DNA from: Bryoerythrophyllum caledonicum
Lineage: Eukaryota; Streptophyta; Bryopsida; Pottiales; Pottiaceae
NCBI GenBank assembly: GCA_963971425.1
Contig: OZ020519.1
Span: 14,152,028-14,216,027, forward strand
Direction: 5' to 3'
Length of the DNA stretch: 64,000 nucleotides
Below, in pieces: positions 19,660 to 39,800 of this stretch. The notes under the pieces were generated by a model. It was not told the DNA's origin, did not search any database, and worked only from the letters and a program-made list of their open reading frames with translations. The position numbers and the translations under genes are program-made. The stretch's first letter is position 1. Every line of letters starts with the position of its first letter.

Positions 19660-20465
19660 GGGTGAGGAAGCGATGTACAAAAATAACTGCCAATTTTGGA
19701 TGAAAACCGGTGGCTCTTGGAGTTACACCGTTTTTTTAAAACAAAAGTGAAATGTAATATATTGTTGAAATGCCATTGTGGATACCTACGCAATGTACTG
19801 TTTAAGAAGCAAAACCTGAATGACTTGTTTCGTCTCATTCCAGCTAAAACTAGGAGCATGCATAAACACATCAACATCGGGATCTAAACCGCAGACAATG
19901 TTGAGGACAAAGTAGAGGTGCTTACAATACATCCATTGTGCGCGTTTGCCAAGGGACTTGTTAGACATGTCTTTGAAAGATGGGCAATCACAACTTGGGA
20001 ACTGACCAATTGAAACCAAATACGTGGAGACGTTGGAAATACTTCTGGACTCAAGCTCAGAATGCATCCTAGAGTTGGTCGCAGCACCATAAGAATCTTG
20101 CAAATTTTGCCAACCACCGACAGTGTAGAGGCGCAGCTGTTATGATCTTTTATAGTCGGTGCATGTGGTTTTCAACGGATATTCTTTCCATACCTCCTAG
20201 TGGGATGCTCTAATGGGTTCATGGACGGAGGATATTCCTCCAAGTCCACAGGAGCAGAAACGTCACATAACAACTTCCTTGGGGACAACTCTAAGCGCTC
20301 AGCGCCGCGGAATCCAGCGTTTTCAAGAGCTAATATTTTCTTACTGGATAATTCGTGCTCATCTTGATGGGCCATACATCTGGATTTCAAGTTTAGACAA
20401 TATCCACTTCCTTCGACTACCTTTCGCGCAACGCTCAATGTCGTCATCGCTAAAGAAGAACTGCA
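19660..20465 (-). pseudogene. MULE transposase, C-terminal part (SWIM zinc finger)
   Basis: This is the 3' half of the transposase gene whose 5' half is at 36838-39848; the CACTA element separates them. Directly after the insertion point the minus strand reads MQFFFSDDDIERCAKG. A frameshift follows near 20350, then LSSKKILALENAGFRG. Further on, YLVSIGQFPSCDCPSFKD continues to a CKH about 20 residues later. That C-x-C...C-x-H spacing is a SWIM zinc finger, the usual C-terminal DNA-binding module of MULE/FAR1-type transposases. The reading frame is broken by the insertion and by internal shifts. It once acted in the nucleus to bind and cut the element ends. Confidence 0.7.
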
Positions 20466-20824
20466 CACTACAAGAAAATCAGCCCAATGTGATTGGATGT
20501 GACTAAGCGCATATGACTGAGTAGTCACCTCAGTCATTGGTTTAGTCTAAAATCAGTCCTAAGAGGGTCCAGTCATGCACTAGTCATATATGTAGTCATA
20601 TTTTTGAGGACCTGGGTGGGAACGGTGTCGTGTTGTAAATTAATATATTGTGTGAAAACATTAAAGATGTTGCTTTGGACATCGGATAGAATATGAGGAG
20701 AAAGATACAAAAGGTTGAGGTCGTGGAGAAATCCACGGTTTGGTTCAATGGGGGATAACCGGAGCTTATTAGTATAACTTGGAAGCTTGCATCTTGTCAC
20801 TGTAGCTCAGGGAAGCGTAGGTGG

Positions 20825-20995
20825 CCGGTTGGCTGCTTATTTCCTGCTTTCACTAGCAAGTACCAAGTTGCAACTATCCAGGCCGTTCAACGAGTTTGAT
20901 AAAGCTCGAACCCGGAACCGACAGGCAACAATCAACGGACCTTGACAGCCAACCAAGTCCGCAACTTGGCGACCATTAGTGGACTTAAGGCGGCT
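20825..20995 (-). repeat. tRNA-like segment in the solo LTR
   Basis: On the minus strand GGGTTCGAGCTTT resembles a tRNA B box, preceded ~40 bp upstream by a TTGGCTGTCAAGG stretch that could be an A box. The full LTRs carry a similar antisense segment at the same relative place (about 25425-25510 and 34120-34205). It is not a functional tRNA gene: no acceptor stem or anticodon arm can be drawn. It may derive from an old SINE captured by the LTR, or act as an internal promoter-like module. Confidence 0.35.
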
Positions 20996-21137
20996 TTATA
21001 CAACTGTTGAGGGACTGTACAATGTCGCGACCTTGTCCTTTAGCCAGATCTTTTGATGCGGGCAACTTTTAGTTTAAATAGAATTATTTATGGCTATTTG
21101 AGTAATTCAGTGAAGGCAAGCTTCTTAAAGAAGTTAC

Positions 21138-21156
21138 TGAGAGATATAAAAAGGAA
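21138..21156 (+). promoter_or_regulatory. Possible TATA box of the solo LTR
   Basis: GAGATATAAAAAGGAAG lies about 75 bp upstream of the ATG of the LTR ORF (21222), a plausible core promoter position. This is inference from motif and position. Confidence 0.4.
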
Positions 21157-21221
21157 GATAGTTTCTTTGCCTCACATGTTTTGCTTCAAGCCAATAGCTT
21201 GGATTGCTTAGAGTTGATAGT

Positions 21222-21644
21222 ATGGATTCTCAAGACCCAGATGAGTGGGAGTTGTCGTTATCACAATTACCGGAGGATCCGTTTCAATCTTCTCAGCCAT
21301 CAACTTCCAGACGGCGAGTGCAAGATGAAGCGGGGCCTTCCGAGCGTCGTGTTCAACCACGTCCAGATCCAAGTCTGCGGCAATTTGCATTTGTGAATCT
21401 ACAACCGGACGCGAGAGCTCTAGTGATTGTATTGGAGGCTGAAGCTTCATTGACGGGTGGCCGTCAGATGGTGTTTGAAGGGTGTTTTGAAAATACCAAT
21501 GAAGGCCAAATGGTGAGTCGCTTTTCTAATGAGATGGGCCATCGTCTTTGGCTTCGAGGGCCGTTGACTTACTTAAGCGATGAACGGAGAGCGAGTTATG
21601 TTTCTGCGGTGCTCCGTCAAATTCTAGAGTTTTTATTCGGTTAA
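21222..21644 (+). CDS. LTR-encoded ORF protein, diverged family member
   Basis: A 140-codon ORF starts at ATG 21222 and lies wholly inside the solo LTR. It aligns along its length with the 152-residue ORF in the young Ty3 LTRs. Shared blocks are LSLSQLP near the N-terminus, a Pro/Arg-rich middle (EAGPSERRVQPRP against EVGPSRPPKQPRV), NLQPDARALVIVLE against NLQQDARALVILLQ, and a C-terminal amphipathic region (GHRLWLRGPL... LRQILEFLF against GHQRWLEGPI... LQRILKFLQ). No signal peptide, membrane segment, zinc knuckle or known domain is visible. Function unknown. Conservation of an open frame in a solo LTR while the flanking LTR DNA has diverged argues that it was under selection in the parent elements. 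Confidence 0.75.
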   Translation: MDSQDPDEWELSLSQLPEDPFQSSQPSTSRRRVQDEAGPSERRVQPRPDPSLRQFAFVNLQPDARALVIVLEAEASLTGGRQMVFEGCFENTNEGQMVSRFSNEMGHRLWLRGPLTYLSDERRASYVSAVLRQILEFLFG

Positions 21645-22199
21645 ATAAAAGTAGAATCCATTCAGTTGTTAATATAAGAGTTTGTTATGTGTTTATGTTT
21701 ATGTTAGATCAAGATCCAAGAAAGAAAAAGAAAAGAAACTAAGAAAAGGTTTGACCGTCTTAGAATTCTTTTGGAACTTCACCTTTTGAAGCCCAATGGT
21801 TGGGGTTTCTTTCCTATCTTATCTTGATAGACTTTAGAGTGCTTTTGGAGGTTAACCAATAGGCTTTAGATGCCCATGTGGCTTAGACGTGGGCTGATGT
21901 GGAAGGATAAGGGGGGGCGACTCTCTTTTCTTCTTGGTGTGTGTTTTTGGTGTGTAGAGAGTGCTGTGAGAAAATTCCCGAGAAGGAAATCGGGCGGTGT
22001 GTACTCGTTTTTCATGAGAATGTTATGAAAGTTTGTGAAGTTGTTCCTTGTAAAGTTGCGCTTCTTTGAGCGGTGTTTTTGTTCAATTTGAAGTTCATAC
22101 GCAAAAGTTATGAGAGATTGAGTGAGGAGTAGTTGGCCGCTACCCAATTAGAGGAGCAGCAACTTCGGGCCTTCACCACGGCTTCGATACTTTGTGTTC

Positions 22200-22640
22200 G
22201 GACTTGAAATTTGAGAGAAGCATTCCTCATTGTATTAGCTTTTTAAGAAGCTATCACTCGACTCATTTAGATGCGCTATGAAAAAGTTATAGCCATCTAA
22301 GTAGAGGAGAGTTCTGCCGTCTTGGAAGTGGGGAGGCGTGAGTTTTAAGCTTACACAACTTTTAGTGAGTAGATTAGTTTGAAGTGAAATTTAGAGAAGT
22401 TGTAGCTTATTAAATTAGCTTTCTATAAAGCTATTATACGGCTCATTTAGAATAGTAATATAGAAGTTATAGCCGCCGAAGTTGGAGAGGGTTTGCTGCC
22501 ATCGACATAAGAAGGCACAAACTTTGAACCTCCATAACTTTTAGAAGGTAGTTTAGAATAACCTGAGATTTTAGAGGGTATTAGCTTATTGCACCAGCTT
22601 TCCAAAAAGCTATAGCAGTTGGCATTTGGCGGCTCAAATC
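22200..22640. repeat. Tandem hairpin repeats in the solo LTR
   Basis: Three degenerate units about 175-195 bp apart share an AGCTTT(N)AAGCTAT hairpin (near 22227, 22422 and 22598) followed by CTCATTTAG- or GGCTC-type sequence and AAGTTATAGCC. The full LTR has the same hairpins near 26955 and 27130. They may be RNA structures in the U3/R region or relics of internal duplication. Confidence 0.55.
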
Positions 22641-22714
22641 ATCTGTGGCATCGATCGGAAGCTCGCAGCTAGTGTGGACAAGAACTTTGGGAGGTCTTTT
22701 GTGTTTTTGAACAC

Positions 22715-22905
22715 TTCAAGACTTGAAGATAAGAAGACATGAAGACTTGAAGATAAGAAGACTAGAAGACTCGCGTATTGTGGCTTGTGGCTTGTTATTC
22801 CTAGCCGGTTTTGGAGGCTCGTTGTCTTTATTTGTTATTCCCAGCCGGTTTTGGAGGCTAGTTGTCTTTCAATTCTGCTTCGTAAACTTTGTTGCGGCGA
22901 AGTGG
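22715..22905. repeat. GAAGA-rich tract and 40-bp direct repeat in the solo LTR
   Basis: A purine-rich tract of GACTTGAAGATAAGAAGA-like units spans 22722-22770. Next come two copies of a ~45-bp unit containing TTGTTATTCC, AGCCGGTTTTGGAGGCT and GTTGTCTTT (22792-22870). In the full Ty3 LTR the corresponding place holds a GTATAC-rich tract instead, so this zone evolves fast. Confidence 0.6.
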
Positions 22906-23285
22906 GGTTAATGGCCCACACGGTCGTGTTTATGTTGTTCCCACCGGTGAGGCGCGATTGCTGGTCACCGTGGGTTTGAAGTTTAGGAGCCAATCTTTCG
23001 GACGGTCAGCTCGTGGTTTGGCTGTCCCGTTTTACCCGTCCGAGGCCGTGGTTTCTTATCACCTACCCTTACCCTTAACCCTTTAGAGCCATCACAGGAT
23101 AGGCCAATGGGGAGGAGTTTGAAGATTGAAGATTGAAGAATGAAGATTAAAGATTTGAAGACAAGAGGATTTGGTGGTCAAGACTAGAGATTTATTTGGA
23201 GACAATCTTTGTTCTTAAACAATTTCTAGCAGCAGCTAGGATCTCCGCGATTTCCCAAAGAAAAACTCTCGCTACTCGACAACGG

Positions 23286-25145
23286 CTACGGGAACGGGAC
23301 ATATGTTCTCCTGCCCGGTTCCCAAAGTCATGCTCTGAGTGCTTACTATGTGTAGTCATAGTAATGTAGTCATATGGTAAGGGTAATTGGTTTATATATG
23401 ACTTATTGTAGTAAGAGAGTTGTTTTGGGTGACTACACGCAGTCATGTAGTAAACAACCTGACTAGTAGTAGTCATATATGTCAATCAGATGATTTTGAA
23501 GTCCTCTACTCGTTGGCTCAATAGGTGAGTGCTGTGAAATTGGAGTAGGTCCATAATCTCCACTTACATAATAACTTCCCTGTTCAACACTACTATGTTT
23601 GCGCGCAAACATTCTAGGATGTCATTTTAGGGCACCATTCTAGAAACACTTTTAAATACACCTTCAAAAATTAGTAACTAATTTGCAAGAGAGTCCAAAA
23701 ACCATGATTCCACTTGCTCTATCTTCCCACTTGCTTTCCAGATGCACAAAATTTCCTTGTAGGCTTAACTTTCATATAGATTTCCCATGCTCACAAAAAA
23801 GTAGGTACGAATATGAATTCTGAAAAGTCATCACGTAGCACAAACCTTCTGTTAGAGCCTTGAATTTGAAGCCGGGGCTTCAACACATCCATGGGCATTG
23901 TCAAAATTGCACTTAGACGTGCATAGTGTAGGAATGACAATCTTGAATAACAATCTCAAAACCTACACTCAACTAGATTTTATCTAATTGGATAAAATCA
24001 CAGTAATATGAGTTGGTCACTGCTGAAATTCTAAGAAGGCAAGTGCACCTTGTTGTACAATATTCTCTACCATTCAACCAACCTCTCTGAACCCTACAGA
24101 CAATCCTGATAGTGCAGTCTCAACACTACAAGAATGGCATTACACTACCTTAATAAAAATAGAATCACACTTGAATCTACCATGCAGGTTGATATGCTCT
24201 GTGACTGCCTCCAATCACATGCACCAAAGAGCTAACTATTGAACACGTTACGTGTTTAAGGATTCTCACTCCTTACCGTCACATGAACCAAAATCATGAC
24301 TTACCTTGGTCAACAGAAAGCATTGGATTGAGTGTTTTAGTGCACAGTCCTACTGAATTTCTAAGAGTACGCGTTCATAAATGATCACCTCGTCCAGACT
24401 GAAAACAACACTCATGTTTCCAAGCTCTTTAGGTGTCGTTCCAGTTACGTCAGGTATCAACCAACTCCCTGCAGTGCCCAACAAAGAGAAATTTACATCA
24501 GAAGCAAAAATCTCAAATGCTAACATTCAAAATCTTGCAAGAGGAAGCTTCTCTACAGCACTAGTGCTGAAATTCTATTCTAAAGGGTACCTCTCATTGA
24601 GAATGATGTTCTGTTAATCAAAAGCTTCCTTCAGGTTGTGATTGGCCAAAAAGCCCGCCTTTGCAATCTGCCTTTGCCTCTGGAAATGGATACCGTCACC
24701 TGCAGCCTTGGTGAAAAACAACAACATCAAGTAAGCCCTTAAGGACCTGGGACTCATTCAAAACTCATAAATCTATCACATTCTAAACCATAACAGATCA
24801 ATGAAGCAGTGTTATCCCTATAAACGTTATAATTTCATGAATGTTAAAAAAATTTGACTTCCCTACAAAAACACAATTGGTAAGACTAGTGAGTGTTATG
24901 TGTTAAGTGTTATAACATGCTCTACTTTCTTCTTTGCTAATTGCACCTCTGTAAGTGTTAATTTTGAAAAAATCAAGGTAATAAAATATGAGAGCATACA
25001 TTTGAAACATGTAATCACATTTATCCCATATTCTTTGCGAACAAGTGTCATATTCTCTCTTATTTAGAGATGCTTCTTCCTTTGGAGTATGACTCAATGC
25101 GTGCAATGTATGACTCAATGTATGACTCAATGTAAGACTCGACGT
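23286..25145. other. CACTA interior with possible captured exon fragments
   Basis: This part of the CACTA element contains many AGTCAT/ATGACTC subterminal-type motifs at both ends. On the minus strand two exon-like pieces occur. One (about 24700-24590) starts after a CAG and reads GDGIHFQRQRQIAKAGFLAN..., with an in-frame TAA, to LNER|GT. A second (about 24480-24365) follows CTGCAG and reads GSWLIPDVTGTTPKELGNMS through VVFSLDEVIIYERVL. They could be transduplicated host exons. I do not recognise the protein. No transposase is present. Confidence 0.35.
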
Positions 25146-25424
25146 TGTCGTGTAAAGAATCGGTTTAATATGTAAATACAGTGTGAAATGGATTGAGAGT
25201 AGTGTTCAGAGCAAATAGAAATAAAACTAAGAAAAATAAAAGTATAGACAAAAGGGAGGGGGGGAGATCAGAGGAATGAAGGGGGAAGAGAAAGGACCGT
25301 GGTTTTAACCACGAAACTTGGAGTCTCTGCATCTTCTCACATGCTCAGGGGGGGTAGGTGGCGCCAACTGGTAGTTTCCTGCCTAGTTTCCACTAGCAGT
25401 GCCAAGCCACGTGGCCATTCGCAT

Positions 25425-25515
25425 GCTCATACGGGTCCAAAGGGTTTCGAACCCGGACCAGTGCTATGGCGCTTGAAGCACTTTACCAGTTGGACTTCCG
25501 CGGCTTGGCGATTAT
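25425..25515 (-). repeat. tRNA-like / SINE-like box inside the 5' LTR
   Basis: Antisense to the element, GGGTTCGAAACCC fits a tRNA B box. Upstream (on that strand) CCAACTGGTAAAGTGC could be an A box. The arrangement is repeated in the 3' LTR and, diverged, in the solo LTR. It is probably SINE-derived and not a working tRNA gene. Confidence 0.4.
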
Positions 25516-25723
25516 CAGAGCATGCTGAAGGGATTTATATCCCTATCCATTGTTTTATATTTTTATTTTATATTTTATTTGAGTGGATTTGATTGAAAAA
25601 AAAAGAGATCACATCTTTGGGAAAGCTTCAAGGTGACGCCTTCTACAAAGTATTTGTGTTATAAGAAGAAGGTTCATTTAGAGCTTCATAAGTTTTATGT
25701 AGTTGTTTTGAATTTTTTTGGAC

Positions 25724-26182
25724 ATGTCTAATTGGAGAGTTTTTTCTGAGTCTCAGGATGAAGAGCTTCAACCAGAGCTTGAGCTAGATTTATCTTTATC
25801 TCAACTGCCGGTTTGTACTCTTCTGCCGCTTAGTCCTGCACCACTGCTTGAGCGTCCACAAGAAGAAGTTGGGCCTTCTCGGCCGCCAAAGCAACCTCGT
25901 GTGGAGCAGCGGTGGCACGGCAATCTTCAACAAGATGCTCGTGCCCTGGTGATTCTATTGCAGGTTGGGTGTGTTGAACCTGGTACTCGAGATGTGACGT
26001 TTGGAGGGATTTTTGAAGGCCTAAATGACAATCAATACTCTTGTTGTCTTAGGCCTGTCAAAGGGAGTCGCGGTCATCAACGTTGGCTTGAAGGTCCAAT
26101 TAATCCATTGATCAAGGTTGCTCGTGCTGACTTTGTTGCTCTTATCCTTCAACGCATCCTCAAGTTCTTGCAGATGGAGTGA
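25724..26182 (+). CDS. LTR-encoded ORF protein (5' LTR copy)
   Basis: A 152-codon ORF starts at the ATG at 25724 (MSNWRVFSESQDEELQPELE), entirely within the LTR. It has an acidic N-terminal third, a Pro-rich stretch (LLPLSPAPLLERPQEEVGP), a basic patch (RPPKQPRVEQRWH) and a compact-looking C-terminal half (NLQQDARALVILLQ, FGGIFEGLNDNQ, GHQRWLEGP, FVALILQRILKFL). It is identical in the 3' LTR and clearly homologous to the solo-LTR ORF at 21222-21644. No known family is recognised. Its position implies expression from the LTR promoter ahead of gag, from both LTRs. Possible roles are transcriptional or silencing-related accessory function; this is not shown by sequence. Confidence 0.8.
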   Translation: MSNWRVFSESQDEELQPELELDLSLSQLPVCTLLPLSPAPLLERPQEEVGPSRPPKQPRVEQRWHGNLQQDARALVILLQVGCVEPGTRDVTFGGIFEGLNDNQYSCCLRPVKGSRGHQRWLEGPINPLIKVARADFVALILQRILKFLQME

Positions 26183-27229
26183 AGTTCCTCTTGAAATTCT
26201 TTTCAAGCTCTTTTAGACATATATTTGATTTTATTTGTTTAGTTTTTAATGTTTCCAAACTTCACCTTGCATGTTAGAAGTTTGGTAGATGAAAGGTAGA
26301 AATAGTTTTCCATTTGGTAGACTTTTGATGCCTTATGGCTAAGATAAGGGATAGATAAGGCTGAAGTAAGCTTAAGGGAGTTAGCCAATGACTAGTTGAG
26401 GCCCATGAGGCGTAGGTGTGGGCTGGTGTTGACTTTGGGAGGAGGCAAAGGGGTCGGGTTCCCCTCTCTCCTCCACGAGAGTGGAGTTTTTCGGTGTGCA
26501 GTTTTTGGAGAGCAAGAGCTCAGTGTGTACTACGAGTTTTACTATGAGATTTTAAGAGCTTGTACATCTTATCGTTGTGGTTTCATAATGATATAGCACG
26601 CTCTATTTGAGATTTGTTTGTAATTTCTATGAGTGTTTGAGTTGGACAGTGTCTGCTGTAAAGAAATTTAGAAGACCGAGATTTCAAAAGCTTGTAGAAA
26701 CTTGTTTATAGTGTTTTTGTTTATGAAATTTGAGCAAGTCAAGTATTATTGTGTTAGTTTTCTATGGAGCTTTGTAACTTTTTATTTAGATTGTTTGAGA
26801 CAAAGTTATGGCTTTGAAAGTGAGAGGGTGTTGAGCTGCCGACTAAATTCAAGAGTGGAAGTAAGCACCAACTTCAACTGAGCATAGAAAACGTTTGGTA
26901 TAGATTCTGAAGATGAATTTTATAGAGAGCTTAGGTGGTGTTATCAGCTTTTTAGGAAGCTATCACTCGGCTTTGGCAAAGCTTGTATGAAGTCAGAGTG
27001 CTCTGTGAAGCAAAGGGAGGTGCAACTGATGCTGAATTTGGGAGTACGACCTTTGACGAGCTATGGACTCTTGACAGTACCTTGTAGAGCTTTAATCTTT
27101 CTTTCCCTCTATTAAGCACTTTGATAGCTTTCCAAAAAGCTAATGCACTCTTGATTTGAAGTGTTTATGCTAATTTGGTGGTTATTTGAAGTTTGGCTAT
27201 TATTTTAGAGGGAGATTCGGGATTTTGAA

Positions 27230-27480
27230 GGTATGTACAAAACTTATACGGTTTTGTATACGGTAGATCGTATTTATACTTTGTACATGTATGTATAAAA
27301 GTATTATACTTGTACGTATAAATCATATATTCGTATAGTATGTTCTACTGTATTTATACATGACAAATACAAGTATTAAAGTACTCTACATGTACATATA
27401 AAAATACTCTACGTATACGGATAGGAATACTCTACGTATACGTACAAAAGGGTATAGATACAAGTATGTATACATGATGC
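27230..27480. repeat. GTATAC/TACGTA palindrome tract in the LTR
   Basis: About 250 bp in which short palindromes (GTATAC, TACGTA, TGTACA, ACGTATACGTA) and ACTCTAC units recur every 10-40 bp. It is duplicated in the 3' LTR (about 35925-36170) and absent from the solo LTR. It could be a protein-binding array or a structured R/U5 RNA. Confidence 0.6.
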
Positions 27481-27593
27481 GTTCAAGGATTAATACTTCT
27501 TATATTATCCTTGTCTTTCATGTCTTAAGTCAAAACTAACTGCAGCAAGAAATCCAGTATTTTCCCAAGGCAAAGACTTCTCTACTCGACATT

Positions 27594-27611
27594 TGGTGCT
27601 TCCACTGAGAG
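27594..27611 (+). promoter_or_regulatory. Probable primer-binding site
   Basis: TGGTGCTTCCACTGAGAG begins 2 bp after the 5' LTR, where a tRNA-complementary site starting TGG is expected. It is not the initiator-Met site (TGGTATCAGAGC). I cannot assign the tRNA without a search. Confidence 0.6.
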
Positions 27612-27644
27612 TAGCTTTGGGGCATTGGTTTTGGTTGAAGCAAG

Positions 27645-30242
27645 ATGGGAGACACGGTTCATGATAAGGAGTTTGGGGGTGGTTCTCGGGAGCCTGGCGA
27701 AGGTTCAAATGTTGCTGGAGAGTTTTTGAGAGCCATGCAGATGCTTATGGATCAGCAATCTGCTAATGCTACAGGACAAGGGGCTACTAAAGCATTGAGG
27801 GATGTTATTGGAAAGGTGGGAAGGTTTGATGGGAAGAATATCACTAAGTTCTTGAGGACCTACACTTGTGAAATGGAAATCTATCAAGTTCCAGAGATCA
27901 GTATGATTGAGACCTTTGACTTAGCAGTTGTTCCCGAGATCAGAGAAAGAGTGAGGCAACTGCATGGGGATGTCCATGTGCATACATGGGCTAGGTTTGA
28001 AGAGAGGTTGAGGGATGAGTACTTTGATGAGGACTCAGAGCGGATGACAAAGGGAGCATTTCTTGAATGGGTGGAGCAACGGCCTGGAAAGCATATGGGA
28101 CCAAGTGAGTTGCTTCGTGAGTTTGAGAGAAGGTTTGGCCAACTTCTATTGTCAGAGAGACGACTGATGGAAGCTCGGAAGTCTGAGATGTTTTTACAAG
28201 CCTCAGATGAAGCCTTAGAAGATAAGCTTCTCATACTCCTTCAAGATGGAGGAGCAGAAGGCGGATTTACCACTGACTGGGAAAGGATGATAGGGTCAGT
28301 GAGTCTCATCTCTAAACAACAACGTGTAAAGTCCAGGGGATTAGGCTCTAGAGTGGGCATTTCAGCTGTAACAGCTCCAAAGGTTCCAGTGTCATCAAGT
28401 GTACCTTTGACAACTACAACACCAGGGAATAGTTCCAAAGGGAGAGTTCTTGATGATAATACACTTGAGGAACTCATGAGGGGCATGAGGGAACTCAAGG
28501 TAGAGATGAATGCTCTTAAGAGGGATCAAAGGCCAAAAGCCTCAGGGCCTTCAACGGGGCAAAGGGATTTTGTGGCGAGATGCATTTGGTGTGATGATCC
28601 CAATCACAAACGTGGTGATTGTGGATCATATGCAGATGCTATGAAGAGCGGCATTATAACTTTCAAAGAAGGAAGAATTAGAGATGCTGCAACAGATGAG
28701 CCTCTTCAGACTAACTTTGGGAAGGGAGGCATGAAGAGATTGATGGAAGAGAAGTTGGGGAGGAACAATACTTCACGTGGGAAGGAAACAGAGACCTACA
28801 CGATTGGGGCTGATTTTAGCACAATCCAAGCTTCTACTTATGCATCTAAAGAGGTGATGGTCAGGGGAGCACAAACCATCAGAAGGTTGACTGGGTGGGA
28901 TGATCCAGTGAATGCTACTACCATCAGAGCCTATTTGATGAGTGAGAATGGGGAGAAGGAACCCCATGATGCATCAGTGGAAGTGAAGAGGGGCAGGGCT
29001 GTTGATGAAGGTGAATCTGAAGAGCCTGCAAACAAGAAGAAACCATCAAGCAACAAAGATGCATCTTCAAAGGAAGGACCAGCAACCAACACAAGGCAAA
29101 GGCAAGAGTCACCACCATATCCAGGTGAGAATACACATTTACCCAAAGACAAGTGGGAAGAAAGAATGGGCAACAAGAAGGGAAAAGGAAAGGAGGATGA
29201 AGCTAAGGGAAAGAGTAAGACACCAGCTTATAAACTCCAATCCGATATTGAATCTTCAGTGGATATGAAGGGCATTTTGGAAGAAAGAATTTTGGATGCC
29301 AAGATAGAGTTTACTCTCAGAGAGGCTCCTGGCATAGCAAAGAAAGATTTCCATGAGCTTATCATTGATGTGATAAAAAGGAAGAGGCAGATGACAGCTG
29401 AAACAGTGATGACAAGGGCATTGGATACTTTGATGTCTAAAGAAGAAGAAGAAGAGATTGGACAAGTGTTTGCCTTGAGCTGTGATAATGCAGGGAATGA
29501 TGACCAGACTAAAAGACAGAGATTTATGTCTCGAGAAACCCAAGATACCAAGGTTGATGTCATGGAGGAGGTTTTGAGTGATGAGGAGGAAGATGAAGTG
29601 TTGCAGATGTTTTTGAGTGATGGAGTGGTTGAGACAAAGGAGAGGAAAGATTCTATCAAGAATCAAAGGAAAATTGTCACAACAGAAGCCAAGGTTTTAC
29701 GATGTGGAGCTGACAAGTCATGGAGACATGATAGTGAAGCCTTGGTAGCATTTACACATCCATTTTGGGCAAGAGCTACCACAGAGACACGTGTAAAGAT
29801 TGGAGATATTGAGGAGCCAATCTTAGCATTGGTGGATCATGGCTCAGAGATCAACATTTTATCGTGGAAGATTTATGAGAAGGGAAAATGGCCAATTGAC
29901 ACCAATCATGGATGGGTATTGAAAGCTGCCAACAATGAAAGAGGCAACTTTTATGGAGCATGTCCAACAGTGGCCATAAAGATTGGTGATGTGGAGGTGG
30001 AGCAAAACTTCTTTGTGCAAAATCAAGGAAGTTATCCCATCATTTTGGGACAGCCATATATCACTGCAACAAGGATGGAGACCAAGGTATTGGATGATGG
30101 CTCACATTATGCCAGGATTCGTAGCCATGATGGTATGAGATCAGTTCAATTTCTCACAGTTAGACCAAATCATGAGAGGCATAGGGACAGACTCAGGGAA
30201 ACTCCCATGGACTATGTCCATGAAGATTTTCTGGATTTCTAA
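27645..30242 (+). CDS. Ty3 Gag-protease polyprotein
   Basis: An intact 865-codon ORF starts at the ATG at 27645, 53 bp after the LTR. The N-terminal ~230 residues are Gag-like (VGRFDGKNITKFLRTYTCEM, FEERLRDEYF, LREFERRFGQLL). A CCHC zinc knuckle, CIWCDDPNHKRGDC, lies near residue 310. A long charged linker follows. The C-terminal ~170 residues are a retropepsin-like protease domain (ILALVDHGSEINIL ... YPIILGQPYITATRMETKV). The active-site triplet reads D-H-G where D-S/T-G is usual. The ORF ends where the pol frame begins in the -1 register, with about 20 nt of overlap, so Pol may be made by frameshifting. It packages RNA and cleaves the polyprotein in cytoplasmic particles. Confidence 0.9.
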   Translation: MGDTVHDKEFGGGSREPGEGSNVAGEFLRAMQMLMDQQSANATGQGATKALRDVIGKVGRFDGKNITKFLRTYTCEMEIYQVPEISMIETFDLAVVPEIRERVRQLHGDVHVHTWARFEERLRDEYFDEDSERMTKGAFLEWVEQRPGKHMGPSELLREFERRFGQLLLSERRLMEARKSEMFLQASDEALEDKLLILLQDGGAEGGFTTDWERMIGSVSLISKQQRVKSRGLGSRVGISAVTAPKVPVSSSVPLTTTTPGNSSKGRVLDDNTLEELMRGMRELKVEMNALKRDQRPKASGPSTGQRDFVARCIWCDDPNHKRGDCGSYADAMKSGIITFKEGRIRDAATDEPLQTNFGKGGMKRLMEEKLGRNNTSRGKETETYTIGADFSTIQASTYASKEVMVRGAQTIRRLTGWDDPVNATTIRAYLMSENGEKEPHDASVEVKRGRAVDEGESEEPANKKKPSSNKDASSKEGPATNTRQRQESPPYPGENTHLPKDKWEERMGNKKGKGKEDEAKGKSKTPAYKLQSDIESSVDMKGILEERILDAKIEFTLREAPGIAKKDFHELIIDVIKRKRQMTAETVMTRALDTLMSKEEEEEIGQVFALSCDNAGNDDQTKRQRFMSRETQDTKVDVMEEVLSDEEEDEVLQMFLSDGVVETKERKDSIKNQRKIVTTEAKVLRCGADKSWRHDSEALVAFTHPFWARATTETRVKIGDIEEPILALVDHGSEINILSWKIYEKGKWPIDTNHGWVLKAANNERGNFYGACPTVAIKIGDVEVEQNFFVQNQGSYPIILGQPYITATRMETKVLDDGSHYARIRSHDGMRSVQFLTVRPNHERHRDRLRETPMDYVHEDFLDF

Positions 30243-33200
30243 ATTGCACACGTGGAGTATGGGGTGCCACGGGTGCAAAAAAATCATCTACTGTTGCAAG
30301 CCCCAATGTACAGAGGAGTGGATACAAGGTTTGGAATTTGACAAAGGATGGATTTATAAGTTTCCAAAAGGTTGAAGATTTGGATTCTATGAAGAGAGGA
30401 TTGACCAAGAAAATGGAAAGAAAATTAAAAAGAGTTGGTGTGATTTTGAGTGATGAGTTTATTTCTGGAGTTGTTGAAGAAGAAGGATTTTCAGATGATA
30501 TTTTACAAGTTTTAGAGACCTTGCAAAGAGAAGTCGGTGAGTCTACTACTATGAGAGTGGAGATTCATTCAAGAAGCTTATATGAAGAAATATTGAAGGT
30601 AGCTGATGAAGTAAGGTTGGTTGGGAGTTATGGCTTGGAAACTGAGGCAATGGTGAACACCAAGTATAAAACTGTAGCAAAGAAAGTGAAGCCTGTGGCA
30701 TTACAATTACCACTAGACTCTGAAGATCATATTAGAAAGGCTGAGGAGGAGCCTGGATTGAGGGAGACAAGAAAAATTGGACACAATTTCACAGAAGAGA
30801 CATTGGCCAAGTTAAAGATTGGAGGGGGTGAGTTTTTGAAAGAACCTGAGAAGATAAGGTTCCGAGAAATGATCTCTAAGCATGGTAAGGCTTTTGCTTC
30901 TTCACCAGATGAGATTGGATGTGTTAATCCAAAGATTGTAGCTCCAATGGTCATTTTTACAGTTCCACATGTGCCTTGGGATTTGAAGCCAATTCCTGTG
31001 CCAAGAGCCTTGCTACCTAAATTGGTGAGTCTATTGAAGGAGAAGATACAGATGGGAATACTTGAACCATCTATGGCTCCATACTCTAACCGATGGTTCA
31101 CAGTGCCAAAAAAGTCTGGGGCTTTAAAATTTATCCAAGACATGCAGCCAGCCAACAAGGTGACAATCAGAAACAAAGGGTCATGACCAATTGTGGATGA
31201 GGTTGCTGAGGCTTTTGCAGGAGATGCCATCTATTCTATTGGAGATCTTTATTCAGGCTATGATCAATTTCAACTTGCATCAGAAAGTAGAGATTTGACA
31301 ACTATGAAGACTCCATTGGGACTTATGAGGATGTGCACATTACGTCAAGGCGCTACTAACTTTGTAGCTCATATGCAGAGTGCCATGAACCAAATCTTCA
31401 GGGAGTTTGTGCCTGAGAAGACTATTCCTTTCGTAGATGACATACCTATCAAAGGTTGCAAAGAAGAGGTCAAAGACTTGACAGAAGATGTTGATGGATG
31501 TAGAAGGTTTGTGAAGGATCACATTGAAGATGTGGAGAAGATCTTAAAAAGGCTTGAAGAAGTGGATTTAACCTTATCCCTTGAGAAGTCCAAGTTTGGA
31601 GTAGATGAGATTGTGGTGGTTGGACATTTGTGTGGAACTTATGGAAGAAAACCTAACCCTGAGAAGGTTGATGCTATTGCTAGGATGAAAGCATGTGGAA
31701 GCATCACTGAAGTAAGGAGGTTTTTAGGAGCTTGTGTCTTTTATCAGATTTGGGTTCCTCATTTTGCTCACATAGCTGAGCCTCTATATAAGTTGTTAAG
31801 AAAAAGGACCAAGTTTAGGTGGGAGCATAAGCAAGAGCTAGCCATGGAGAGTCTAAAGGAGATTTTGAAGTCACCACCAATCTTGAGGCAAGTTGACTAT
31901 GATTGCAACAGACCAGTTGTTACTGTTGACACAAGTCCAATTGCTATTGGTTGGGCTATTGGCCAAGATGAAGCAGAAGGAAAAAGGTTTGTCATCAGAT
32001 TTGGAGCAAGAATTCTCATGGATAGACAAAGAGCATATCCACAAGTGAAGAGGGAGCTTTTGGGGGCACTTACAACTATGAAGGCAGACAGAAATTACTT
32101 AATTGGAGCCAATGTGGTATTGGAAACTGATTGCTTACCATTGTTGGGAATGGTTGCTAATTGTTCAACTCCTGATATTGCCATGTTGAGATGGATAGCC
32201 TACATCAGATCACTTAATCCCATCTTGGTGCACATCTCTGGCAAGAAGAATTCCGTGGCAGATATGTTATCTAGGGCTAGATATATCTGTGAAGAAGAGA
32301 TGGAAACGCAAGAGATTGGTGAAGATGAAGAAGATGAGGGCTATGGATATGTGCAAGCTATTGATGGAGCGAGCATAAGTGATGAAGACCAAGCTTTCAG
32401 AGAAGATCTTTATAGAGGAAAATTAAGAGACATTGGCATCTATTTAAGTACCATGAAGAGACAAGAAGGTTGGTCAGATAAGGCCTTTAAAGGCATTCGA
32501 CACCAATCTTATAACTATATCTCAAGAGATAGTTTCTTATGGAAGAGGCCAAAGAGGAAGGATGGAGTTCCATTGAGAGTGGTGGATGATGAAGAAACCA
32601 AGAGTCAAATCCTCAAAGAGTTTCATGATACACTTTGGGCAGGCCATCGAGGAATTTGGGCCACTTACCATAAGATTAAGGAGAGATATTGGTGGAAAGG
32701 CCTTTACAAGGATGTAGAGGAATTTGTGGCTTCTTGTATTGAATGTCAATTACAATCCAAAGTCAGATACAGAGATGAGTTGCATCCTACCTATCCAGTT
32801 GCTATGCATTTTCAATGGGTGATTGACTTGGTAGCTATGCCATTGGGATTGTGGGGCATGAAGTATCTTGTTTTGGCAAGAGAAGAGCTTTCAAACTATG
32901 TTGAAGGTAGAGCTTTGAGGACCAAGACCACAGAAGGAGTATGTAGATTTATCTTGGAGGATATCTTCAGCAGGTATGGCAGTATTGGAAGGATGAGAGC
33001 TGATAGAGGAGAATTGGATGCAGCAGAAGCCAGAGACTTTTTTCAGAGGTATGGTGTGCGCTTGAAGCTAAGTACTGCATATAATCCCGAGGCTAATGAC
33101 AAAAGTGAGAGAGGACATCCTCCCATTATCAATGCTCTTGTCAAAGCTTGTAGAGGTAAACAAAAGCAGTGGCCAAGACTTCTACCATTTGCATTATGGG

Positions 33201-33796
33201 CTGATAGAACCACTCATAGTACTGTTACAGGTTATATGCCCATTGAGTTGATGTTAGGCCAAAAGCCACTTATGCCTACAGAGGATTCAATACCTACTTG
33301 GATGTTGTTGGACTGGAACGATGGCATTACAAGAGAAAGATTATTGGAGCTTAGAATCCAACAGCTTGAAAGATTGCCTGAGGACCATAGGATTGCATTG
33401 GAAAAATTGAAGGCTTCAAGGTTGAGCAACAAGGAGAGATTTGATAAGACACATCGGTTGAGATCAAAACCTATTGAAGTTGGAGATTGGGTGTTGGTAT
33501 TTGATAGTAGTTTGGAACATCAACACTGTACACTTAGAAAGTTTGCACGGAGATGGTTTGGGCCATATGTAGTGGTCACAGTGCATGATAATGCTACCTA
33601 TTCCCTTCGGGAGTTAGATGGCACACTATTGAGGATTCCTGTAGCAAGAAAACGGATCAAGGCATTCAGAAGGAGAGCCACAGGATTTGCTCTAGAAAAT
33701 GACTCAACTGATCAAAGACCATCAGAAGATCAAGATGAAAAAGATGAAATATCAGATAATGATGGATTAGATGAAGCTGAAGAAGACCAAGACTAA
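30224..33796 (+). pseudogene. Ty3 Pol (RT-RNase H-integrase) with one premature stop
   Basis: One frame is open from 30224 to 33796 except for a TGA at 31184-31186 in the RT domain (NKGS-stop-PIVDEV). A CGA Arg codon in CpG context would be one C-to-T change away. RT motifs follow: IGDLYSGYDQF and PFVDDI. RNase H has VVTVDTSPIAIGW and ISGKKNSVADMLSR. Integrase has the H-H-C-C finger (AGHRGIW ... CIECQ) and a catalytic core with WVIDLVAM, MRADRGE and SERGH. It ends with a GPY/F-like module and an acidic tail. No chromodomain is seen. Apart from the stop, every catalytic motif seems present, so this copy is non-autonomous only by one codon. Confidence 0.88.
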
Positions 33797-33823
33797 ATTG
33801 GCACATACCGGTGGATGTGCAGG

Positions 33824-33838
33824 TTTGGAGGGGATGGA
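33824..33838 (+). promoter_or_regulatory. Polypurine tract
   Basis: The purine-rich run TTTGGAGGGGATGGA directly abuts the 3' LTR start (33839), the expected site for plus-strand DNA priming. Confidence 0.8.
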
Positions 33839-36285
33839 TGTCGTGTAAAGAATCGGTTTAATATATAAATACAGTGTGAAATGGATTGAGAGTAGTGTTC
33901 AGAGCAAATAGAAATAAAACTAAGAAAAATAAAAGTATAGACAAAAGGGAGGGGGGGAGATCAGAGGAATGAAGGGGGAAGAGAAAGGACCGTGGTTTTA
34001 ACCACGAAACTTGGAGTCTCTGCATCTTCTCACATGCTCAGGGGGGGTAGGTGGCGCCAACTGGTAGTTTCCTACCTAGTTTCCACTAGCAGTGCCAAGC
34101 CACGTGGCCATTCGCATGCTCATACGGGTCCAAAGGGTTTCGAACCCGGACCAGTGCTATGGCGCTTGAAGCACTTTACCAGTTGGACTTCCGCGGCTTG
34201 GCGATTATCAGAGCATGCTGAAGGGATTTATATCCCTATCCATTGTTTTATATTTTTTATTTTATATTTTATTTGAGTGGGTTTGATTGAAAAAAAAAGA
34301 GATCACATCTTTGGGAAAGCTTCAAGGTGACGCCTTCTACAAAGTATTTGTGTTATAAGAAGAAGGTTCATTTAGAGCTTCATAAGTTTTATGTAGTTGT
34401 TTTGAATTTTTTTGGACATGTCGAATTGGAGAGTTTTTTCTGAGTCTCAGGATGAAGAGCTTCAACCAGAGCTTGAGCTAGATTTATCTTTATCTCAACT
34501 GCCGGTTTGTACTCTTCTGCCGCTTAGTCCTGCACCACTGCTTGAGCGTCCACAAGAAGAAGTTGGGCCTTCTCGGCCGCCAAAGCAACCTCGTGTGGAG
34601 CAGCGGTGGCACGGCAATCTTCAACAAGATGCTCGTGCCCTGGTGATTCTATTGCAGGTTGGGTGTGTTGAACCTGGTACTCGAGATGTGACGTTTGGAG
34701 GGATTTTTGAAGGCCTAAATGACAATCAATACTCTTGTTGTCTTAGGCCTGTCAAAGGGAGTCGCGGTCATCAACGTTGGCTTGAAGGTCCAATTAATCC
34801 ATTGATCAAGGTTGCTCGTGCTGACTTTGTTGCTCTTATCCTTCAACGCATCCTCAAGTTCTTGCAGATGGAGTGAAGTTCCTCTTGAAATTCTTTTCAA
34901 GCTCTTTTAGACATATATTTGATTTTATTTGTTTAGTTTTTAATGTTTCCAAACTTCACCTTGCATGTTAGAAGTTTGGTAGATGAAAGGTAGAAATAGT
35001 TTTCCATTTGGTAGACTTTTGATGCCTTATGGCTAAGATAAGGGATAGATAAGGCTGAAGTAAGCTTAAGGGAGTTAGCCAATGACTAGTTGAGGCCCAT
35101 GAGGCGTAGGTGTGGGCTGGTGTTGACTTTGGGAGGAGGCAAAGGGGTCGGGTTCCCCTCTCTCCTCCACGAGAGTGGAGTTTTTCGGTGTGCAGTTTTT
35201 GGAGAGCAAGAGCTCAGTGTGTACTACGAGTTTTACTATGAGATTTTAAGAGCTTGTACATCTTATCGTTGTGGTTTCATAATGATATAGCACGCTCTAT
35301 TTGAGATTTGTTTGTAATTTCTATGAGTGTTTGAGTTGGACAGTGTCTGCTGTAAAGAAATTTAGAAGACCGAGATTTCAAAAGCTTGTAGAAACTTGTT
35401 TATAGTGTTTTTGTTTATGAAATTTGAGCAAGTCAAGTATTATTGTGTTAGTTTTCTATGGAGCTTTGTAACTTTTTATTTAGATTGTTTGAGACAAAGT
35501 TATGGCTTTGAAAGTGAGAGGGTGTTGAGCTGCCGACTAAATTCAAGAGTGGAAGTAAGCACCAACTTCAACTGAGCATAGAAAACGTTTGGTATAGATT
35601 CTGAAGATGAATTTTATAGAGAGCTTAGGTGGTGTTATCAGCTTTTTAGGAAGCTATCACTCGGCTTTGGCAAAGCTTGTATGAAGTCAGAGTGCTCTGT
35701 GAAGCAAAGGGAGGTGCAACTGATGCTGAATTTGGGAGTACGACCTTTGACGAGCTATGGACTCTTGACAGTACCTTGTAGAGCTTTAATCTTTCTTTCC
35801 CTCTATTAAGCACTTTGATAGCTTTCCAAAAAGCTAATGCACTCTTGATTTGAAGTGTTTATGCTAATTTGGTGGTTATTTGAAGTTTGGCTATTATTTT
35901 AGAGGGAGATTCGGGATTTTGAAGGTATGTACAAAACTTATACGGTTTTGTATACGGTAGATCGTATTTATACTTTGTACATGTATGTATAAAAGTATTA
36001 TACTTGTACGTATAAATCATATATTCGTATAGTATGTTCTACTGTATTTATACATGACAAATACAAGTATTAAAGTACTCTACATGTACATATAAAAATA
36101 CTCTACGTATACGGATAGGAATACTCTACGTATACGTACAAAAGGGTATAGATACAAGTATGTATACATGATGCGTTCAAGGATTAATACTTCTTATATT
36201 ATCCTTGTCTTTCATGTCTTAAGTCAAAACTAACTGCAGCAAGAAATCCAGTATTTTCCCAAGGCAAAGACTTCTCTACCCGACA
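33839..36285 (+). repeat. 3' LTR of the Ty3 element
   Basis: 2,447 bp, nearly identical to 25146-27591. Differences I see are TGTAAAT/TATAAAT near the start, GCCTAG/ACCTAG, one extra T in a T-run near 34255, GGATTTG/GGGTTTG, a T/G change at the fourth base after the ATG of the ORF, and CTACTCGACA/CTACCCGACA at the end. Confidence 0.95.
34418..34876 (+). CDS. LTR-encoded ORF protein (3' LTR copy)
   Basis: Same 152-codon ORF as at 25724-26182. The only change noticed, T to G in the second codon (TCT/TCG, Ser), is synonymous, so the protein is identical. In this position it would be transcribed only by read-through into downstream DNA or from the 3' LTR promoter, so its integrity mainly reflects the recent copying of the LTR. 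Confidence 0.8.
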   Translation: MSNWRVFSESQDEELQPELELDLSLSQLPVCTLLPLSPAPLLERPQEEVGPSRPPKQPRVEQRWHGNLQQDARALVILLQVGCVEPGTRDVTFGGIFEGLNDNQYSCCLRPVKGSRGHQRWLEGPINPLIKVARADFVALILQRILKFLQME

Positions 36286-36289
36286 ACGT

Positions 36290-36837
36290 ATGACTCAATG
36301 TATGACTCAATGCGTGCAAGATCCCATTACTATGCGCAGTGATAAAACCAATCATGTATTAACTGATACCTCACTACATTTAGTCATACCATTTGGAAGC
36401 TATTTGAGTATTTGTGACTAGGGGTTGCCAAATAGATGCGACTCCAAAGAGTCACGTTCTCCCAACTCAATGAATGACTCAATTTAGTCACCATCTCACT
36501 ACTATGCGTAGTGATAAAACCAGTATTATGTTGACTTATACCTCACTAGAAATAGTCATTCATTCAGTCACTATTTACATATGGATGACTACGTGTAGTC
36601 ATACATACATGACTATATAGAGTCATATGGACCCAAGTCCCACTGCAGGTCCGGTTTTGAGGTCCCAAAACACTGTGGGAACGTAGTATTGGGAACAAGA
36701 AGTGTCCGATATGACCCCCAGTCAGATTGTCCGAAGCGACTAAGTCGAAATGACTAGAAACAGTGCTAGTCACATTTTGGTTTATGCCCAACTGTAGTCA
36801 TAAAACCTAGTCACATTGGGCTGGTTTTCTTGTAGTG
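36290..36837. repeat. CACTA 3' subterminal repeat region
   Basis: Dense AGTCAT / ATGACT / TGACTCAA motifs in both orientations occur up to the terminal CTTGTAGTG. The same motifs lie at 20500-20605 and 23340-23490 and at 25080-25140. This is typical of the transposase-binding ends of CACTA elements. Confidence 0.75.
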
Positions 36838-39800
36838 GCATCTTCTTAATCCTATTCTTCTTGTAGGTGTCCATCATACCTGTGTAAGTCGGGGCAGCAG
36901 TACTTTTCCCGTCTTGTACGATCTTAGCAACACACTTCTTCCTCGTGATGGCCTACAGGGCAAAACACGCTTTCGCAGAGGTTTTAGGGAGTCTAGCAAT
37001 GTGCCATTGTCCCTCATCGCAATCAGATTCTAATATTGCCTTAGGATGATGTACTCGGAAGGAAGATGGTGGACTCGTGGAAGGCATGACTCGTGCTGCA
37101 TCAAGTTCTACACCCGGGTACACGACGTCACTATTGGTCGAAAGGTCTACAAGTTTTGGATTCTTCCGCCTAGTTTGGACATAAGGGCGTGAGATACTCA
37201 TTTTGTCGGGTCGGTGAGGGTCGAATTTGCAACCAAGCAGTAATCAACCTTTCTTTTCACTGTAACAAAGACTTCCTCACCTTCAAGATGAGGATCGCGG
37301 ATGCAAAATTGGGCAGCGCCAGGCATGTTGCTTAACACTTCGTGAAGCACTTTCAAATTACCAGACCAATGCGCGGTTCTTTGGGCCGCACGAAGTCGAA
37401 GTTCTTCTCCTGGCCCGGTTCGAGCCTTCTCACCCTTCAGAAACCCATAATAGGCCACTACTTGCATGAAGACGCGAACCACATCATCGACGGTTGCCAC
37501 ATACAAGTCGTTCCCTCTCTTGCCTGATTGCTGCAACCACTTATTGTCGACGGTCTCCGCTAGATTCCATGAAGGCATCTCAGCCATTTCCGACTCTGAT
37601 AAAGCCTAGAAAACCAAGAACAAAATTACCATTAAGAAAGTGCACCCCTAGCATCAACAAAGACATGAGAAAACTGTAATATGAAGTGTAGGTAGCTTAC
37701 ATGATCCATGAAGCCCCCCCACTGACGGTAGCGGAAATGCCAAAAGACGAGCCATAAGTCTAGTCGGACAAGCCCATCATCGGTCGTTGCTCCACATGAT
37801 AACCACCATGATCGAATCGCTAGGTACTTCGTCTGAGCCTCATCCATAGTTGTGGAATTCTTATACTGTTTGCGAAGCTGCTTGTGTTGGTCTTGAAGGT
37901 CTACTCTGATGTCAACCTTGGTGTGCTTCTCAAGTGATTGGATCCAATGAAAGAGACAGGTCCTTTCTCGATTGTCCATTCGGATGGAGGCGTCACCACT
38001 TCCGTAAGTAATTAGAATAGCATTACAATTTGCCTCTGCGCTCTCGGCCATGAAGCCTTTGAAGTTCACATTTGGCATGTCATGCTTAGCCGCCACTAAA
38101 TTCAAATTGTTCCAGAATACTTGTTATGCAGCGGTATCCTCGGATTGCATGTCACAGACGGCAATAGTCATTACACGGCAAAACGTAGAATCATAAACAT
38201 GAGATGCCATTGTTGTCCATCCCTTGACGCGCTTCACATGGTCGAACATCATCCAAGAGTCTTCCAAATCACCTCCAGGTTGCATTCGGCGCACTAAATC
38301 AACGCCACTACCAGATCCAATCTCTCTCATCTTGAAGATGAAGACCTTGTCGGCGTCTGTACCTTGACCTGGAAACCGGTTCTCCTGGACGAAAGCCCAA
38401 TTGCTAGAGCCTCTAAGTTTAGTAATACTATCCATGACACCAAATCGGCGAAGGTAACAGAATGTCGTAACTTCATTGCGGAGACTAGAGGAGGACATTA
38501 GCTTGACCTTGTCCAAGACAGGGACCAGTTCTTCTAACCCAAAGGCCTTCTGAGAGACACCGTCAGGACAGAGGAGCAATTTTCCAAGGTACTCCTTACT
38601 TGCTTTCAAGACGATGGAGGAGTTTGTAGGAGAAGGAGTCCGTTCAACCTATTCTCCTATCAAGGCCCTAAATTTAGAGGTTTTGTCTCTGCAAATACCT
38701 TTCTTCACTGGATGACGACGAGGTTCCAAATGAACACAAGCACGGGACATATTATTTTGCCCAACTACGTAATACACCTTTGCCAAACAACTATCTATAC
38801 ATGTAGGTGGAAGGTGACAGATTGCACACAGTACAGTTGAACTTGACAGCGGCTCGCACCCTGGAAAAAATGGAGAGGATGAGGTACCCTCCCATAGTGT
38901 CTCACTGAAAGGAGAGGCTCGATTGGGACGATGAAGATAGTTGCAGAGAGGGTTAGTACACCTAAGGTGTCCTAAGCAAGAAGACATCCGAAATGTGAGT
39001 TGATGTTCAGACTTGATGTGAGAAGTGATGGTACGAGTTCAAGCATGACCATCGTGTTTCTTATCTATACCGTAGAGGTGGCCAGCCTTGGAAGAAGAAG
39101 GAAAGTTCCCAAGAGAAGGAAGTTCAAATACAATGTCACCGTCGAAAGTAGGTGGCATGAAGTCAACTTTTTCTATAGTGATGGAGTTGAAATCAAGTTT
39201 ACTAAGGACAGACTTTGATCCACGACGAGAACTTAAATTCTGAAGACAATCCACTATGCTATTTGACGTTGGAACAAAAGAAGATTGAGGGGGGTTAGAT
39301 CTCTGAAGGGTAGCCAAGGAAGGAGGCGATGAACGAGGAGGCAAAACTAGCGGTGTTGATTGAAATGAAGAATTGACATGAGTCAATGGGATGCACTCAC
39401 TATTAGAGTCGTCACTTAAAACATAGACGGTCTCATTACTTGGCTCTATTTTGACCTTTGAAAGCAGGGGTGTGACCCCAGTAGCAGTTGATGATAAACG
39501 AGGCGTCAAAGAAGGTGATGTTGTTCCACTGTTGCTATCGTTTCTGCCATACACTCGGTATTTACCGGCTCTAAGCAACCACATCTCGTCCACGCAGTTG
39601 ACACTACTAATCTGTGCAACTGAATGCGTAATCTCACCCGTGATTGGATCGAATACTTCTCAATCGACATGAACAGTTCTCTCAGTGCTCTTGAATCTCA
39701 ATGCTAGACGACTACGACTCACTGAAGCGAAGCCAGTGTCACCAACTAAAAAAGAAACTGGTACAGCTGATCCCTCTCCTCGAAGCAGGACACAACTACT

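Follow-up and report, generated by a model that had tools for sequence, protein, structure and literature searches.

The long terminal repeats (LTRs) of retrotransposons are usually viewed as regulatory regions, and solo LTRs are regarded as dead relics. In retroviruses, the accessory genes sag of mouse mammary tumour virus (MMTV) and nef lie in or overlap the 3′ LTR and rely on viral splicing for expression from that copy. The VANDAL elements of Arabidopsis, which are DNA transposons, encode the anti-silencing protein VANC, and p22 of Ty1, a fragment of Gag, serves in copy-number control. Plant retrotransposons may carry additional open reading frames (aORFs) in sense or antisense orientation, located in the internal region and mostly between pol and the 3′ LTR; one of these, gene23 of Grande, is antisense, has its own promoter and encodes a nuclear protein (PMC7264820). 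The part of this review available to us mentions no LTR-encoded ORF, searches of the open-licence literature, as judged by titles and the beginnings of abstracts, listed no study of an ORF within the LTRs of plants, and ‘coding LTR’, in the portions of plant papers at hand, refers to non-coding LTRs or to coding elements. Here we describe an accessory ORF, very probably a selected gene, within the LTRs of Ty3 retrotransposons of the moss Bryoerythrophyllum caledonicum. It was found in a 64,000-nucleotide stretch of contig OZ020519.1 (positions 14,152,028 to 14,216,027; hereafter the window, whose numbering is used for coordinates given without a contig name).

The window holds a young Ty3 element at 25146–36285, which belongs to family A in our own naming of families (A, B, C, D, D2, E, E2 and H). 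Its 5′ LTR (25146–27591, plus strand, 2446 bp, TG…CA) and 3′ LTR (33839–36285, plus strand) are 99.76% identical, with five mismatches and one gap over 2447 aligned positions, and the insertion is flanked by a 4-bp target-site duplication (TSD), ACGT, at 25142–25145 and 36286–36289. Each LTR contains a plus-strand ORF of 152 codons (25724–26182 and 34418–34876), and the two encode the same protein. A further plus-strand ORF of 140 codons (21222–21644; 140 aa) lies in a solo LTR at 20626–23281 (plus strand, 2656 bp) with a 4-bp TSD of ACGG. An earlier note on this DNA had placed all three ORFs correctly, and its description of a young element carrying the ORF in both LTRs is borne out by the LTR identity, the ACGT duplication and the primer binding site (PBS) after the 5′ LTR. 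It had also taken the solo LTR for a strongly diverged member of the same family; this has to be revised, as over 2.5 kb the solo LTR shares about 99% identity with two loci (L014 and L057) that hold LTRs of elements of a sister family, E, elsewhere in the genome. An old, decayed solo LTR of family A is ruled out by this match together with the TSD, and the solo LTR is instead a young one of family E. The solo-LTR and full-LTR proteins can be aligned, as that note had proposed, with 40% identity between A and E (E = 6e-25 in a single pairwise comparison). Its location within the LTR places the ORF at both ends of an insertion and allows it to outlast the formation of a solo LTR, of which the window provides an example.

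The genome searched comprised 437 Mb in 894 contigs, and each protein search refers to its best 150 scored matches. At least seven LTR families (A, B, C, D, D2, E and E2) carry homologues of the accessory ORF, and many of the matches lie in pairs or chains about 8.1–9.0 kb apart, a spacing expected from an ORF at both ends of an element. The five families read to the end of the LTR (A, B, C, D and E) have CGACA at that end and a common PBS behind it, with one base different in E. Beyond this genome, homologues are present in Ceratodon purpureus and in environmental sequences. The A protein is matched by 118 of 149 candidates in a protein collection and the E protein by 330 of 412 (120 of those listed), with Ceratodon purpureus as the named eukaryotic source among the matches listed; three matches bear the names of bacterial metagenome-assembled genomes and are probably contamination. 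Among contigs of prokaryote genomes, 100 pattern matches included one relative, L059, a contig filed as cyanobacterial and bearing a Ty3 pol; we interpret this contig as contamination from a moss. The 74 pattern matches among the IMG/VR viral contigs included no relative. The constant place of the ORF in the LTRs of seven families and of L059 speaks against an unrelated insert unique to these copies, which the earlier note had considered.

Four more LTRs were chosen through PBS sites outside the lists of ORF matches; two contain an E-like ORF and two contain none. Family E2 is represented by L063, whose ORF has a stop, and L064, whose ORF is intact. Two loci with the same PBS, L065 (C6:841100–843300) and L066 (C2:8141100–8143300), show no ORF match at E ≤ 0.1, and no DNA similarity of their LTRs to the other LTRs was detected at E 1e-8; they are perhaps further ORF-less families. 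As a family-wide trait of these LTRs, the ORF thus holds for several Ty3 families, for Ceratodon and for L059, and fails for two of these four LTRs and for all three fetched loci of the related group H described below, which rules out that it is present in all relatives. The fetched loci of families C, D and D2 are all on small unplaced contigs (such as C101, C435, C681 and C836), which may represent regions that are hard to assemble, such as centromeres, or the DNA of another moss.

Selection was assessed from the ratio of nonsynonymous to synonymous substitution rates (dN/dS) by a counting method (NG86 with Jukes-Cantor) on a codon alignment with one copy per family, in which many pairs are near saturation and several are not calculable. 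Among A, B, C, D and D2, nine of the ten pairs gave a dN/dS of 0.08–0.16 at a dS of 1.2–2.4, the pair C–D2 being saturated. In eight of these ten pairs, third codon positions have at least double the changes of first or of second positions; between A and C, for example, the first, second and third positions show 30, 26 and 67 changes. The values for A–E and D–E depend on the alignment (0.29 for both in a first alignment, 0.32 and 0.24, respectively, in a second), and B–E, C–E and D2–E are saturated. E2 gave 0.22–0.39 against other families where calculable and 0.21 against E, while L059 gave 0.09–0.20 against A, B, C, D and D2. Taken together, the low ratios between families and the codon-position pattern show that the accessory ORF is a protein gene under purifying selection between families, somewhat weaker than that on pol, pieces of which gave 0.045–0.12 where calculable. 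A non-coding conserved element is ruled out by the codon-position pattern.

Within families, dN/dS where calculable was 0.56 in C, 0.17 in D, 0.19–0.30 in D2 and 0.16–0.46 in E. The earlier note had also asked about frequent stops in the LTRs of family members. The ORF is free of stops in 44 of 53 family-A matches (the first 53 of the 150 scored) and in 119 of the 150 best-scored family-E matches, and some copies do carry stops; these counts favour intact copies, since they cover only the best matches, include array copies repeatedly and leave frameshifts unscored.

The accessory protein has 140–153 residues (16–17.6 kDa), with a net charge of −5 to −7 over the first 30 residues, a proline-rich linker containing a conserved K-Q-P-R (Q-P-R in E) and a C-terminal domain of 84–89 residues. 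This layout of acidic N-terminus, proline-rich linker and C-terminal domain suggests a nuclear regulator, a function that we propose tentatively. Neither window protein matched Pfam at E ≤ 1, and a member-by-member Pfam search over 83 aligned relatives gave five weak matches, one member each, at E 0.06–0.25. NCBIfam gave no match for the two window proteins, a profile search of the PDB returned nothing under E 0.56, and BLASTP against the gag ORF of the window element was not significant (best E 0.63). Two longer relatives, P0113 (Ceratodon KC19_5G095800) and P0239, have 231–299 residues and two copies of the LTR-ORF domain; they come from two sources, are 68% identical, with an extra N-terminus in P0239, and possibly represent a domesticated or ancestral host gene. 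The best P0113 match in the B. caledonicum genome among those scored is a decayed locus with seven stops, L029 (C7:6641715–6642293).

The ORF is better conserved than most of the LTR around it. Comparison of the complete A, B and D LTRs, with gaps excluded, gives 67–73% identity for the ORF, against 43–52% upstream and 48–53% downstream; a previous five-family comparison had lowered the flank values by counting gaps as mismatches and by including the incomplete C and D2 LTRs. The claim that the protein is conserved while the surrounding LTR DNA is hard to align stands for the LTR as a whole and not for every part of it, as the 60-nt flank windows at 27126 and at the LTR end are as similar as the ORF, and the ORF window at 25806 is no better than the flanks.

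Upstream of the ORF, a box of sequence GCTTCAAGGTGACGC lies at 25625–25639 (plus strand), 99 nt before the ATG, with its 3′ LTR copy at 34319–34333. The box is identical in representatives of A, B, C, D and D2, at 99–131 nt before the ATG. It has 283 exact copies genome-wide, compared with none for its backward control, and 8 of the 12 copies on contig C1 are just upstream of a listed ORF match. A TATA-like box comes next. In family A it is at 25660–25665 (plus strand), 64 nt ahead of the ATG, and the solo LTR of family E has TATAAA at 21145–21150 (plus strand), 77 nt ahead of its ATG. Such a box occurs in six of six families, 64–99 nt before the ATG, and comes nearer to TATAAA or TATATA in C, D and E. 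We refer to the GCTTCAAGGTGACGC and TATA-like boxes as candidate promoter P1. L059 has a comparable order of pol (75% identical to the window pol), polypurine tract (PPT), LTR start, a GCTTCAAGGTGACGC box with one mismatch, a TATA-like stretch and ORF, in which the ORF is incomplete and the LTR seems internally gapped, possibly through an assembly fault.

Downstream of the ORF, a second candidate promoter, P2, spans 26385–26474 (plus strand) and consists of CCAAT at 26385, GGCCCA at 26400, TGGGCT at 26419 and a pyrimidine patch at 26459–26474. Counted from the ORF stop, CCAAT lies at 192–211 nt, RGCCCA at 208–233, TGGGCY at 234–245 and the pyrimidine patch at 276–279; A, B and D have all four parts. 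Three or more of the four parts never arose in 2000 shuffles per family, a control that overstates significance because the P2 windows were set post hoc; with the module shifted by eight offsets, at most two parts were found, in E only. P2 resembles a TATA-less plant promoter and may be the start of the genomic RNA. Near the LTR end, a candidate 3′ splice acceptor, TGCAG|, is located at 27541–27545 (plus strand), 46 nt before the end. An acceptor-like CAG is found 45–46 nt before the LTR end in all five of A, B, C, D and E, and the predicted start of gag is in each case the next ATG downstream; the unspliced leader of family A has 29 ATGs between the ORF stop and gag.

A separate block in the upstream part (U3) of the LTR is shared by A (25340–25510), E (20830–20980) and H (L060–L062). 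It contains a GGTTCGAACCC-like stretch, aligns among these three and does not align with B, C, D or D2. By eye the block looks like an antisense tRNA-derived sequence; ARAGORN found no tRNA in the window, and Rfam gave nothing at E ≤ 0.5 over 20000–37000.

Close ORF-less relatives came from a genome search with the integrase end of L059, in which the best 150 of 2599 candidates were scored and 128 of these were 87–96% identical. Three such loci were fetched as group H (L060, L061 and L062), with integrases 96, 89 and 89% identical to that of L059; L061 is from an array on C6 with 18 PBS sites. None of the three has a GCTTCAAGGTGACGC box or a trace of the accessory protein (best tblastn E 0.5), and a genome search with P0062, a protein close to the L059 ORF, listed no match at L060–L062 among its best 150. 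The sequence read at these loci stops before the LTR does, and the remainder, about 360 nt in L061, is too little to contain the ORF. They retain the LTR start, a downstream (U5) part about 80% identical to that of family B (L060), TGGGCT at 555–561 nt and, in two of the three, CCAAT at 460–465. Since such close relatives lack the ORF, the gene is not needed in cis.

Phylogenetic trees of pol and of the ORF disagree in part. In the pol tree, two clades are supported at 100/99 each, one of A and D and one of B, C and L059, and E and D2 fall between them. The ORF tree pairs B with L059 (100/97), attaches A to this pair less firmly (93/91), gives no resolution for C, D and D2, and places E at a great distance. 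Tested on the ORF data, both of these pol clades are weakly rejected (A+D, p = 0.029; B+C+L059, p = 0.043); the pol data reject C+D+D2 (p = 5e-8), a grouping that the ORF tree does not firmly back either. This partial disagreement is a hint of exchange, and fast change of the E protein could be behind part of it. The simplest reading of these sequences would be a loss of the cassette in H with some recombinational exchange between families.

Our overall best explanation, to which we give a probability of roughly 0.45, is that the LTR bears a promoter–ORF cassette whose product is a regulator acting in trans. The ORF, its own promoter P1 and the second promoter P2 would form a self-contained cassette inside the LTR, with P1 driving a short mRNA for the accessory protein in each LTR of an element and in solo LTRs alike. 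P2 would most likely start the genomic RNA, in which case P1 and the ORF would lie in U3, and splicing into the acceptor close to the end of the LTR would produce the gag mRNA. The product would act in the nucleus to regulate the transcription or silencing of LTRs, and ORF-less relatives may use this trans-acting product or do without it.

A number of observations weigh against this explanation. On the side of selection, pairs that include E or E2 gave the higher ratios (0.22–0.39, near saturation), and within family B the dN/dS was 0.28–0.86. Five family-A copies gave 0.94–3.8, that is about 1, on 5–17 changes, which is the pattern of neutral decay after insertion; the dN/dS well under 1 that the earlier note had named as a check was thus seen between families (0.08–0.16 in nine of ten pairs) and not within family A. 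On the side of the control regions, family E has the TATA box without the P1 box GCTTCAAGGTGACGC, weak TATA-like forms were counted (GATAAAA in D2 and TTTAAAA in B), P2 has three of its four parts in E, two in D2 and none in C, and the positions of the TATA-like box, P2 and acceptor were chosen after viewing the sequences. Further YAG sites lie near the candidate acceptor, and no splice donor matching it was found. H-like matches are abundant, so the accessory protein may be dispensable, and H has another TATA-like stretch after the tRNA-like block that could be its promoter. The conflict between the pol and ORF trees is weak on the ORF side (p 0.03–0.04), and the pointers to a nuclear role are only the charge pattern and a short basic motif, with no profile or structure match.

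Other explanations draw on the same evidence. The protein could be a means of self-limitation, lowering transposition as the number of LTRs, full and solo, increases, with the ORF-less H escaping and expanding. The three H loci without ORF would fit this, as would the 128 of 150 scored integrase matches at 87–96% to the H-group reference, many of them in arrays, and the persistence of the gene in a solo LTR means that its dose could track total insertions. Long-term purifying selection, as seen in several families, would be less easily sustained for a gene that restricts its own element. Near-identical copies also occur in the ORF-bearing families A, B and E, those of B and E in arrays; we consider self-limitation unlikely. 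Less probable still is that the LTRs produce a suppressor of RNA silencing or another antagonist of host defence. A small, lineage-specific protein, probably with its own promoter and absent from relatives in the same genome, would suit such a role, but it matches no known family or profile, and its acidic and basic layout suits a nuclear protein equally well.

Equally improbable, in our view, is a cofactor of the particle or of import (a Gag partner, or a factor for import of the pre-integration complex) translated as the first cistron of the genomic RNA. P1 would then be the genomic promoter and the ORF would lie in R/U5 (the repeat and downstream LTR regions), an arrangement consistent with the TATA-like box that all six families have 64–99 nt ahead of the ATG and with family C, which has no P2 motif; amplification of H without P1 box and ORF argues against it, as do the P2 motifs downstream of the ORF in most families. 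A functionless ORF, arisen by chance or captured as a fragment, would account for the family-A dN/dS of about 1 and for the stops in some copies. It is very improbable indeed, given the purifying selection between families and the constant place of the ORF in the LTRs of seven families of this genome and of L059. The promoter–ORF cassette with a trans-acting product remains the explanation we prefer.

The remainder of the family-A element is that of a Ty3/gypsy retrotransposon, with the corresponding order of pol domains and with TG…CA LTRs, PBS, PPT and a 4-bp TSD. All of its parts given here are on the plus strand. The 5′ LTR is followed by TT and then by the PBS TGGTGCTTCCACTGAGAG (27594–27611). 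The gag ORF (27645–30242, 865 aa) has Pfam DUF4100 at residues 446–584 and probably ends in a protease, assigned by eye. Pol (30338–33796) encodes reverse transcriptase, RNase H and integrase, with the Pfam order RVT_1, RT_RNaseH and Integrase_H2C2, and with rve slightly under its cut-off (30.1 vs 32.6 bits). In this copy the pol frame is broken by one in-frame TGA at 31184–31186. The PPT, read from the sequence, lies ahead of the 3′ LTR at 33827–33838. The window gag and pol are in different frames, and some H and B matches have open pol frames of about 1200 aa, which together would suggest expression by frameshifting.

Several of the elements form long head-to-tail arrays. The array on C6 (19709548–19851624) has its 18 PBS sites about 8005 bp apart, that on C14 (15859725–15902390) has an 8442-bp unit and six ORF matches, and that on C9 (11202073–11238420) has an 8982-bp unit and five ORF matches. 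These arrays consist of evenly spaced single units, as though LTRs were shared between neighbours, and their extent is possibly in part an effect of assembly. Tandem structures of LTR retrotransposons have been reported to be common in plants (PMC11899658).

A conserved gene in the LTR would alter how such repeats are seen. Recombination between LTRs, a usual route of retrotransposon removal, can leave the gene behind, and gene dose may track all insertions, not just intact ones. The wider picture, in which the LTR is a promoter–ORF gene upstream of the genomic promoter, solo LTRs are working regulatory genes, and the cassette has been swapped between families and lost by an ORF-less relative, is one that we regard as evenly poised. 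Short LTR genes may be missed in transcription surveys; a study of transposon transcription in Physcomitrium patens, for instance, dropped solo LTRs and LTR-element assemblies shorter than 1000 nt (PMC7466625). The presence of H without the ORF beside ORF-bearing families in one genome amounts to a natural knock-out, which makes transactivation, anti-silencing and copy-number control directly testable.

Of the systems described so far, sag and nef would be the nearest in position, each being, like the accessory ORF, a sense-strand ORF in an LTR. They differ in that the window proteins have no Pfam match (E ≤ 1), and in that a separate LTR-internal promoter is proposed here, in a plant Ty3 element. 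The resemblance to VANC is limited to possible function, as a proposed trans regulator of its own element, with no family match. Ty1 p22 would be comparable under self-limitation, being element-encoded and dose-dependent, and differs in that the accessory protein is unlike its own gag (E 0.63). Grande gene23 and other aORFs share with the accessory ORF a lineage-specific distribution, a lack of clear database relatives and a conserved ORF beyond gag-pol. Whereas gene23 is internal and antisense, the accessory ORF is in the sense direction within the LTR, twice per element and also in a solo LTR; an own promoter has been reported for gene23 (PMC7264820), and the candidate for one here is a conserved box with a TATA-like motif read from the sequence. 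By this comparison, Grande gene23 is the nearest plant analogue in kind.

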